Shown here: piece after piece, positions 50,467-56,761 of the stretch
How positions within the stretch are numbered: the stretch's first letter is position 1
How the letters are laid out: each line of letters opens with the position of its first letter
Assembly (NCBI GenBank): GCA_017991315.1
Contig: JAGOQS010000001.1
Coordinates: 744,001-808,000 of the forward strand
DNA length: 64,000 nt
Direction of reading: 5' to 3'
Source of the DNA: Ferrovibrio sp.
GTDB lineage: Bacteria > Pseudomonadota > Alphaproteobacteria > Ferrovibrionales > Ferrovibrionaceae
Notes under the pieces: generated by a model
The model's database searches: none
What the model saw: the letters and a program-made list of their open reading frames with translations, nothing else
What the model was told of the DNA's origin: nothing
Made by a program: the position numbers and the translations under genes

Positions 50467-50505
50467 TTCTATGGCGTTTGACATAGTATGTTGATCACCA
50501 TAGAA
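50467..50505. promoter_or_regulatory. nested palindromic operator over the tetR promoter
   Basis: Two inverted repeats share the centre 50486: outer arms TTCTATGG (50467-50474) and CCATAGAA (50498-50505), and an inner ACATA-G-TATGT (50481-50491). They cover the -35 and -10 elements of a promoter that serves the TetR-type gene. A TetR dimer or pair of dimers binding here could control both divergent genes. Confidence 0.65.
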
Positions 50506-50506
50506 T
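50478..50506 (+). promoter_or_regulatory. sigma-70 promoter of the tetR-type gene
   Basis: TTGACA (50478-50483, perfect) is followed after 17 bases by TAGAAT (50501-50506, five of six). It is among the best consensus promoters I see in the window and lies about 40 bases ahead of the gene start at 50545. Confidence 0.75.
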
Positions 50507-50544
50507 CGGCCGCAGCCAATCGCAACAGGATTTCAACCCGCCCC

Positions 50545-52510
<1,966 letters not shown>

Positions 52511-52511
<1 letters not shown>

Positions 52512-52858
52512 TGCCGATGCGCGCCGCCGCCGCTTTTCTCTTCTTCGCGGCGGCGGCGCTCTCTGCCTTGCCGGCGCGTGCCCAGGGCATCGACCTCGCC
52601 GGCCGCTGGGCTTCGAGCCAGGGGCAATGCGACCTGGAATTCATCGCCTTCGAACGCGATGGCAATTTCCGCTCGCAGTTGGAAGAAGAACCGCGCGAAG
52701 GCACCTGGAAGCTGGCGCGTGATCGCGTCACGCTGATCGCCAACGACGAGCCGGATCGGCCCTGGACGCTGCATATCCTGGATTACACCGCGAACCGCCT
52801 GGTGGTGCTGGACGAAGCCATCGAGAGCGACCGCCGCTTGCAGCGCTGCCGCCAGTAA
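52511..52858 (+). CDS. small secreted protein of unknown function
   Basis: A 115-residue protein with a signal peptide (about 1-24, ending PARAQG) and a mature part of about 90 residues that begins IDLAGRWASSQGQCDLEF and contains two cysteines that could form a disulfide (in GQCDLEF and RLQRCRQ). The alternating pattern GNFRSQLEEEPREGTWKLARDRVTLIA suggests a small lipocalin-like or META-like beta-barrel. Its ATG overlaps the eno stop by one base, so it is probably translated by coupling. I do not recognise the family. Confidence 0.72.
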
Positions 52859-52861
52859 ATT

Positions 52862-53770
52862 TCACCCCGGCACGAAATGCGGGATCACCTGGCCGGTAGC
52901 CGGGTCGTGAATGCCGAGGCCTGAAGGCCTTGAAGCGATCATCCATACACCGAGGATCGGGCCGCCGATAGGTGGCGGCGCGAGCAGGGCTTCCTCGCCA
53001 TGGCGGCGGCGCAGCCAGGGCAGGAAGGCCGGGCTGGCCAGCAGCGCCTTCCAGGCCGGCTCGATCACCCGCACGCCGCTCGGTCGCAGCAGGTTGGCGA
53101 CGCGCAGATCCTGCCATGGCCGCTGCACGCAGAGCCGCGTGATCGGCCGGCGCCATTGATCGAGCAGGCGGCGGCCATTCCAGATCAACTGCTCGGCGGC
53201 AATTGCCACCGCCTCGACCCCGCCTTGCAAGGCGGTCTCGCGCAGATAGGTCAGCACCATCTGCTCGCCGGGTGCCGCTTCCAGGAAATGCACGCGGTGA
53301 CCATAGAGGCCGAAATGCCGCCAGGCCTGCACCAGGGTCTCATGGATATGATTGAACTGGCGGTCATCCGGGCGATGCCAATCGCGCCATTCCGCCTGCA
53401 GCACGCCGGCCTGCAGCAGGCCGTGCGGCGTGAGCGCATCGAGATCATACAGGCGCGGCACGCCATCGGCGGTCAGCACGAAGTCGATGCGGCTGATCAG
53501 GTTCTTGTCCTGCCGGCCCCAGCTTTCAGCAGCCATGGCGAGGCCAGTCTGGTCGAGCCCGAATTCCGCCGGCACGCCGCCCGCCAGCAGCGCGGCCACG
53601 GCTTCGAGCGTGAGTTCCTCGACATGGGCCGCCGCCGCTTCCAAGTGGTCGATCTCGGCAGGGCTCAGGCTGTAGGCATCACTGCCAGCCGTCGAATCGG
53701 AATCGGCAAGGCCGAGCACGGCCTGATGGCTCGGCCAATCGGGGTGCGGCGGGGTCTCGGCGCGGCGCAT
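52862..53770 (-). CDS. glutathionylspermidine synthase-like protein lacking an ATP-grasp segment
   Basis: A 302-residue protein that resembles the C-N ligase of glutathionylspermidine synthase (GSP_synth family, about 385 residues). Family-like landmarks are present: LYDLDALTPHGLLQAGVLQAEW (like the usual YNADTPT... block), RQFNHIHETLVQAW, VIEPAWKALLASPAFLPWL and the C-terminal ILGVWMIASRPSGLGIHD and IPHFVPG. Between PAFLPWLRRRHGEEALLAP and GGPILGVWMI the KPLLxREGANV-type ATP-binding region of the family is missing, roughly 60-80 residues. So the protein probably lost ligase activity or uses another function. Its start lacks a clear ribosome site, and it converges on the small secreted protein gene. 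Confidence 0.7.
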   Translation of the reverse strand: MRRAETPPHPDWPSHQAVLGLADSDSTAGSDAYSLSPAEIDHLEAAAAHVEELTLEAVAALLAGGVPAEFGLDQTGLAMAAESWGRQDKNLISRIDFVLTADGVPRLYDLDALTPHGLLQAGVLQAEWRDWHRPDDRQFNHIHETLVQAWRHFGLYGHRVHFLEAAPGEQMVLTYLRETALQGGVEAVAIAAEQLIWNGRRLLDQWRRPITRLCVQRPWQDLRVANLLRPSGVRVIEPAWKALLASPAFLPWLRRRHGEEALLAPPPIGGPILGVWMIASRPSGLGIHDPATGQVIPHFVPG

Positions 53771-53936
53771 GGTGTGAGCATATTCGGGTCACGCAGGTTG
53801 CAAAAGCGCAATTGCCGGCACGCCCAGGATTCAAAGCCGTTAGAATCAGGCTAAGGCTTTGACTCTCTGGCTAGAATCGCCGCCGATCACGGTTTTGTTG
53901 TTGACCCGGCGACTCGGATGTGATTCGATTCAAGGC

Positions 53937-54248
53937 ATGGGAGCCCTGCGCGAGATCAAACGTCACTCACTGGCCGCCATCGTGCCGGTGATCTGCTTCG
54001 CCACCATCGCCTATTTCGGCTATCACGCCGTGGAGGGCGAGCATGGGCTGAATGCCTATACCCGCCTCTCGGTGCAGATTCACGACACCAAGGCCGCCCT
54101 GGCCGAGATCACCGCCGAGCGTAGGCAGATTGAGCGCCGCGTCACCCTGCTGCGGGCCAGCGGCCTGGATGCAGACATGCTGGAAGAGCAGGCGCACCGC
54201 TCGCTCGGTCTACTGATGAACCGCGAATTGGTAATTCTCGGACGTTGA
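53937..54248 (+). CDS. ftsB: cell division protein FtsB/DivIC-like septum formation initiator
   Basis: A 103-residue protein with a membrane helix (about 12-30) and a following coiled coil (about 42-75: KAALAEITAERRQIERRVTLL) ending with EEQAHRSLGLLMNRELVIL, the layout of FtsB. It joins FtsL and FtsQ in the division complex. ATG 53937 is taken; the frame is open upstream to 53859 but has no signature there. In alphaproteobacteria ftsB lies between eno and pdhA, which confirms the name. Confidence 0.87.
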   Translation: MGALREIKRHSLAAIVPVICFATIAYFGYHAVEGEHGLNAYTRLSVQIHDTKAALAEITAERRQIERRVTLLRASGLDADMLEEQAHRSLGLLMNRELVILGR

Positions 54249-55402: not shown

Positions 55403-56761
55403 ATGGCTATTGAGATTTTGATGCCCGCCCTTTCGCCGACCATGACGGAAGGCAAGCTGTCCAAATGGCTGATCAAGGAAGGCGACACGGTGAAGGCCGG
55501 CCAGGTAATGGCCGAAATCGAGACCGACAAGGCGACGATGGAATTCGAAGCCGTCGATGAAGGCGTGCTGGAAAAAATCCTGATCGCCGAAGGCACCGAA
55601 GGTGTTGCCGTGAACACGCCCATCGCGCTGCTGCGCGGCGAAGGCGAAGCGGCGGCTCCGGTGGCGAAGGCTGAAGCGCCGAAGGCTGCGGCACTGGTTG
55701 CCGCGCCCGCAGTGGTGACTGCGCCTGCCGCCGCACCGGCCAAGGAACTGGCCGACCCCGATATTCCGCCGGGCACCGAGATGGTGACAATGACCGTGCG
55801 CGAGGCGCTGCGCGAGGGCATGTCGGAAGAAATGCGCCGCGACAAGAGCGTGTTCCTGATGGGCGAGGAAGTCGGCCAGTATCAGGGCGCCTACAAGATC
55901 AGCCAGGGCATGCTGGATGAATTCGGCCCGCAGCGCGTGATCGACACGCCGATCACCGAGATGGGCTTCACCGGCCTTGGCGTCGGTGCGGCTTTCGGCG
56001 GCCTGCGCCCCATCGTCGAGTTCATGACTTTCAATTTCTCGATGCAGGCCATCGACCAGATCGTCAACTCGGCGGCCAAGACGCTTTACATGTCTGGCGG
56101 CCAGATGGGCTGTCCCATCGTGTTCCGCGGCCCGAATGGCGCCGCCGCCCGCGTCGCCGCGCAGCATAGCCAGTGCTATGCCGCGTGGTATTCGCATATC
56201 CCGGGCCTCAAGGTGGTGGCGCCGTATTCGGCGGCCGACTTCAAGGGCCTGATCAAGGCGGCGATCCGCGATCCGAACCCGGTGATCTTCCTGGAGAACG
56301 AGATTCTCTATGGCCGCAGCTTCGAGGTGCCGAAGCTGGACGACTACGTGGTGCCGATCGGCAAGGCGCGCATTGCGCGGGCCGGCAAGGATGTCACCCT
56401 GGTGGGCTATGCGATTTCGGTTGGGTATTGCCTGCAGGCCGCCGAGAAGCTGGCCGAGCAGGGCATCGAAGCCGAGGTGATCGACCTGCGCACCATCCGC
56501 CCGATGGATACCGCCACGATCATCGCCTCGGTGCAGAAGACCAATCGCCTGGTCACGGTGGAAGAGGGCTTCCCGCAATCCGGCATCGGCGCTGAAATCG
56601 CCGCCCGGGTCATGGAGCAGGCTTTCGACCATCTCGATGCGCCGGTGCTGCGCGTCACCGGCAAGGATGTGCCGATGCCTTACGCGGCCAATCTCGAAAA
56701 GCTTGCCTTGCCCAGTGTGGCTGAAGTGATCGAGGCGGCGCGCGCCGTCTGCTATCGCTGA
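55403..56761 (+). CDS. pdhB: pyruvate dehydrogenase E1 beta subunit with an N-terminal lipoyl domain
   Basis: The 452-residue protein begins with a lipoyl domain (1-80; lipoyl Lys43 in ETDKATM) joined through an Ala/Pro linker to the E1-beta transketolase-like domain (about 130-450, with [31 protein letters not shown] and [13 protein letters not shown]). A lipoyl domain on E1-beta is a known alphaproteobacterial variant. Its lipoyl domain is nearly identical to that of PdhC, and 59 bases of DNA are exactly the same, suggesting recent exchange between the two genes. Confidence 0.95.

Follow-up and report, generated by a model that had tools for sequence, protein, structure and literature searches.

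The 302-residue protein encoded between eno and ftsB in the window, by which we mean the whole stretch of 64,000 nucleotides of Ferrovibrio sp. DNA that was analysed, is probably a pseudoenzyme: it derives from a peptide-spermidine ligase, and selection would have retained its scaffold for binding. Judged by its sequence, it is an orthologue of the YgiC/YjfC-type GSP_synth ligases (PF03738) from which an internal part of the ATP-grasp nucleotide site has been removed. We infer the binding or scaffold role from the retained fold, the selection acting on the gene and the loss of catalytic residues. The features that bear on this reading are collected in Table 1.

Table 1. Positions of the short gene, its landmarks and related features (window coordinates unless a locus is named).
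Feature	Position	Strand	Basis
Short GSP_synth-like gene, 302 aa, ATG start	52862-53770	-	ORF list and PF03738 match
Pre-ATP-grasp part and ligase fold ahead of the deletion, residues 1-265	52976-53770	-	Alignment, model
Deletion junction, residues 265/266; 57 residues of the full-length form gone	52975-52976	-	Alignment to congeners
C-terminal strands kept, GVWMIASRPSGLGI...IPHFV, residues 266-302 and stop	52862-52975	-	Alignment; YgiC/YjfC tail matches
R94-I-D96, kept counterpart of GspS R316/D318	53483-53491	-	Alignment to relatives
D109-L-D111; E and N in 17/17 full-length relatives (GspS E330/N332)	53438-53446	-	
P247; K in 17/17 full-length relatives (GspS K498)	53030-53032	-	
H288; R in 17/17 full-length relatives (GspS R598)	52907-52909	-	
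Intergenic stretch, short gene start to likely ftsB start	53771-53936	.	Two-genome comparison
eno, left landmark of the slot	51231-52511	+	Found in all genus genomes examined
Gene for a 115-aa protein between eno and the slot, without Pfam match	52511-52858	+	
ftsB/DivIC, right landmark of the slot, likely ATG start 53937	53937-54248	+	PF04977
Lipoprotein-like gene, G005	L024:7485-8120		
Lipoprotein-like gene, G001	L026:6516-7250		

The short protein matches PF03738 (GSP_synth) with an E value of 1.3e-41 and 143.4 bits, against a gathering cut-off of 29.3, and this match spans only positions 25-271 of the 371 of the profile, leaving the ATP-grasp core uncovered. A profile built from nine full-length relatives matched at 1-269 and then weakly at 337-357, with approximately 270-336 unmatched, so that neither profile gave a match covering the ATP-grasp region. 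The missing block lies between P265 and P266, corresponds to profile positions of about 272-326 and represents one clean internal in-frame deletion. In the alignment to full-length congeners, the block includes the KPxxGREG motif and the YQQ strand, both of which belong to the ATP-grasp nucleotide site. The initial annotation had described a GSP_synth-like protein of 302 residues with the ATP-grasp core missing, which the range of the PF03738 match and the 57-column gap confirm; the full length of about 385 residues that it assumed has to be corrected to the 375-376 residues of the full-length proteins in this genus. A second short form, of 316 residues, with 53 residues absent and nearly the same borders, was found in a congener assembled as a single contig (G005).

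Among ten genomes of the genus, the gene is intact in four (G001, G004, where the copy is cut by a contig end, G006 and G008), short in three (the window genome G000, G061, which belongs to the same species, and G005) and absent from the other three (G002, G003 and G007). The order eno, 115-residue protein gene, slot, ftsB, pdhA and pdhB was observed in every genus genome examined, with the slot of G004 split across two contigs; the placement between eno and ftsB in a conserved order, proposed earlier, thus holds across the genus loci, and the ligase ancestry proposed with it agrees with the orthologous slot and the predicted fold. Where the gene is intact, three genes running opposite to eno occupy the slot, and they encode a DUF1190 lipoprotein, the ligase and a DUF350 membrane protein. 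DUF350 and DUF1190 are present in all four of these genomes, and genome-wide searches found neither in the other six genomes of the genus, where the ligase is short or missing, including G000, G061 and G005. According to PMC11237479, such a ligase occurs together with DUF350 and DUF1190 in operons, and PspA is also involved.

In the window species the slot retains the short gene alone, and in its closest relatives, G003 and G007, it is empty (146 bp). The slot of G002 carries predicted SDR-type and LysR-type genes, as deduced from its ORFs and the homologous genes of G005, whose slot (L024:4841-11360) also has a chemoreceptor-like frame, recognized by eye, besides the SDR-type and LysR-type genes. 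Genes seem to come and go often in this slot across the genus, and the ligase gene is dispensable in the genus, since it is wholly missing in G002, G003 and G007, the closest relatives included. Both the G001 ligase operon and the G005 short gene are followed downstream by a lipoprotein-like gene that has no Pfam match (37% identical between the two), which suggests that the G005 locus goes back to the arrangement from which that of G001 derives. With respect to the landmarks, the ftsB frame opens at a TTG (53859) and its first ATG is at 53937; given that matches to orthologues begin only at residues 13-27, the latter is probably the real start. A gene for a TetR-family regulator is located upstream of eno (50488-51123) and, among nine compared genus loci, some of which end near eno, was found beside it only in the other genome of the same species. 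A promoter and terminator scan found no sigma-70-like promoter or terminator near the short gene, and Rfam and tRNA scans of the whole window gave nothing.

To evaluate the selection acting on the short gene, we compared G000 with G061. Over the 909 bases there are 12 differences, 11 of them silent, with a neutral expectation of 26-32% silent changes (P 3e-6 to 3e-5, depending on the transition bias; the test comprises these 12 differences between two genomes). In the adjacent intergenic DNA, 13 of 166 bases differ, six times more than in the gene, and the dN/dS of the short gene within the species is approximately 0.03, as for eno. The short gene is under purifying selection in the window species now and is not dead, in agreement with the earlier claim that it is not a simple pseudogene, for which the 11 silent changes to a single amino-acid-changing one speak. 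Antisense open frames are common in GC-rich coding DNA, and one of 284 residues overlaps the short gene (53000-53854); the substitution pattern does not support it, and selection on this frame was ruled out, as 11 changes are silent only in the frame of the gene and at most eight in any other. In pdhB (55403-56761), the silent divergence between both genomes is 0.16, compared with 0.04-0.06 in neighbouring genes, suggesting local recombination or import; local histories therefore differ along the window, and the silent-to-changing ratio within the short gene is independent of such differences.

For the branches that lead to the short forms, the analysis used times that had been fixed on five neighbouring genes, since the omegas of a codon model with free branch lengths had to be set aside given that synonymous sites are saturated. 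Omega was 0.077 for the intact copies (background) and 0.55 for the window branch, for which omega 1 was rejected (twice the log-likelihood difference, 24); for the G005 branch it was 1.07, and omega 1 was not rejected. The old constraint therefore collapsed. This acceleration, which is great on both short-form branches, together with the lack of any copy in three of the ten genus genomes and the empty slot of G003 and G007, is what would be found if the gene were a slow relic, functionless after the loss of its partners and of the ATP module and heading to complete loss. Open frames are easily kept in GC-rich DNA; in sets of 1000 neutral simulations of the G005 branch, 84 remained without a stop under a GC3-like composition and 3 under the composition of the whole gene, a composition-dependent and weak result. 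We nevertheless consider it rather unlikely that the gene is such a relic. The silent bias within the species and the lower divergence of the gene compared with its intergenic neighbour argue against it, and GC3 is unchanged in the short forms (0.81 and 0.87). In each of them the amino-acid changes are more conservative than neutral, and none of 200 simulations reached as high a value. Both short forms also keep the same positions: among 192 congener-identical positions, the same 94 are kept and the same 47 changed in both, where 26 shared changes were expected (P 4e-11, a value that is inflated if both short forms descend from one truncated ancestor). For the G005 copy, with its omega close to 1, the relic is a serious alternative, though its changes are conservative.

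The residues that were lost point to the same pseudoenzyme reading. Seventy-five columns are invariant, with at most one exception allowed, across 17 full-length sequences; 33 of these are kept in both short forms, 18 are substituted in both, seven are deleted in both, and the remaining 17 differ between the two. Substituted in both are E114, N116, K257 and R357 (G008 numbering), which correspond to E330, N332, K498 and R598 of GspS; the counterpart of K533 is deleted in both, while those of R316 and D318 are kept. In GspS, these seven residues reportedly contact the metal, ATP or the intermediate, with E330, N332, K498 and R598 as metal and ATP ligands and K533 as the lysine of the KPxxxREG segment that touches ATP. 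Both short forms have also lost T121, which corresponds to S337 of GspS; according to PMC6272389, S337 helps the attack by spermidine and E391 takes part in spermidine binding.

Because the R316 and D318 counterparts remain, some residual chemistry would still be possible by sequence, and the protein might still be an enzyme in which the pocket with R94 and D96 carries out an ATP-independent reaction on a peptide-polyamine bond, for example its hydrolysis or transfer. Both short forms keep these two residues and the fold on its substrate side, and they also have in common with the congeners the polar set H143, E144, H158, R159 and H161. We regard such new chemistry as very unlikely, however, given that the counterparts of E114, N116, T121, K257 and R357 have all changed and that the replacements mostly differ between the short forms. 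Only 10 of the 47 shared changes are identical, with no excess over simulation, so that the two short forms do not seem to share a new set of catalytic residues.

The remnant is predicted to keep the enzyme fold despite the deletion. The AlphaFold2 model has a mean pLDDT of 92.3 and a pTM of 0.90, with a pLDDT of 92 at the junction (residues 261-270); the input alignment consisted of 37 relatives, which carry the missing module, and this confidence is accordingly no proof of folding in the cell. Superposition of the model on YjfC covers 301 of its 302 residues (Z 33.0, rmsd 2.3), and that on YgiC gives a Z of 32.2; a viral structure library yielded nothing with an E value of 0.001 or below.

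The truncation may have occurred once or twice. The two short-form species are separated in the species tree, and the gene tree joins their short forms weakly (85/96), on long branches; placing each of them with the kin of its own species was not rejected (AU p 0.166). The species tree, the neighbours at the locus and the lack of excess identical replacements speak for two origins, and the similar deletion borders and the W131A, F221C and W228D changes that occur in both short forms speak for a single one. A bolder proposal, which we hold as doubtful, is that within this one genus the same ligase was truncated twice independently, with the same ATP-grasp module excised and the same partners dropped each time, and that the pocket is now a strongly selected peptide or polyamine sensor or scaffold. 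If true, the change of a ligase into a binding protein would be a path that evolution can take repeatedly.

Beyond the genus, the family-level and order-level searches covered the same 18 genomes, 11 of which have a match, and PF03738 was matched in 71 of 385 genomes of the class and in 91 of 398 genomes drawn from the phylum. In these class and phylum genomes, none of the matches listed, other than the three of this genus, combines two matched flanks with an internal gap at 272-326. The other partial matches are at contig ends (G143 and G395), form two adjoining pieces without that gap (G097), are weak and below the cut-off (G134, G146 and G608) or contain a stop (G491). A public collection of genome contigs gave two loci, of which one has the motif and is 402 residues long and the other has a match limited to 300 residues, and a collection of viral contigs gave 40. 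We examined 41 of these loci (L095 was left out), and three were dropped for stops or frame. The simple KPxxR pattern is absent in five of the remaining 38; two of these five are partial (280 and 300 aa), and the other three are not short forms, since they are 379-415 aa long. No short form is reported in the literature searched, whose coverage leaves out most subscription journals.

The window genome is 72.6% complete, which could raise the suspicion of an assembly or sequencing artefact, or of a gene elsewhere supplying the missing ATP-grasp lobe, and both are extremely improbable: the same gene, with 301 of 302 residues identical in the protein, is present in the independently obtained G061 (99% complete, 5 contigs), a short form exists in the single-contig G005, and the nine-relative profile detected no second family copy at E up to 10 in G000, G061 or G005. 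An assembly gap and an intact paralogue were ruled out in this way by both genomes and the genome-wide profile searches, and a split gene with a separately encoded lobe by the lack of a second match. The initial annotation had proposed looking for short homologues in related genomes, a structure prediction and an intact paralogue; the first were found in G061 and G005, the second gave a remnant modelled with high confidence that superposes on YjfC, and the third was found in none of the three genomes searched.

From these results, we propose that the ancestor was a YgiC-like peptide-spermidine ligase whose gene shared the slot between eno and ftsB with those of the DUF1190 lipoprotein and the DUF350 membrane protein. 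The window species has lost the ATP-binding module, the ligands of metal and ATP and the two partners, and what is left of the ligase fold is predicted to close over the gap. ATP-driven formation of an amide bond would no longer be possible. The remaining scaffold may be kept because it binds something: the former substrate pocket could take up a peptide or a polyamine, or the scaffold could bind another protein; the first two ligands are plausible because R94, D96 and substrate-side residues are retained. It would presumably act in the cytoplasm, away from the membrane module to which the ancestor belonged.

E. coli YgiC and YjfC are reportedly peptide-spermidine ligases, an assignment attributed to Pederick et al. 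2023. The short protein has in common with them (PDB 7uk6-7uk8, 7uka) the PF03738 family and the fold, and differs in lacking the 57-residue ATP-grasp module and the counterparts of E330, N332, K498, K533 and R598. Its full-length congeners sit in a DUF1190, GSP_synth and DUF350 operon, a gene set described for such ligases in PMC11237479, whereas the short gene is without partners. The E. coli glutathionylspermidine synthetase/amidase and the Leishmania trypanothione synthetase (2io7, 2vob) have the same synthetase fold (Z of about 29); compared with these enzymes, the short protein has neither the amidase domain nor the ATP-binding segment, and most of the ligands are missing.

A few residues are usually all that separates pseudoenzymes from their active relatives. 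In general (reviewed in PMC5106787 and PMC10211241), they keep the fold, lose catalytic residues and are retained by selection; the short protein likewise keeps its fold, as predicted, has lost catalytic residues and is under selection, but here a whole nucleotide-binding module has been excised instead of single residues being changed. One genus presents the intact, truncated and absent states at one locus, with the partners lost alongside. With this natural series one can ask what a peptide-spermidine ligase scaffold is capable of when it no longer uses ATP, and the same series bears on the joint role of YgiC-type proteins and their DUF350 and DUF1190 partners.
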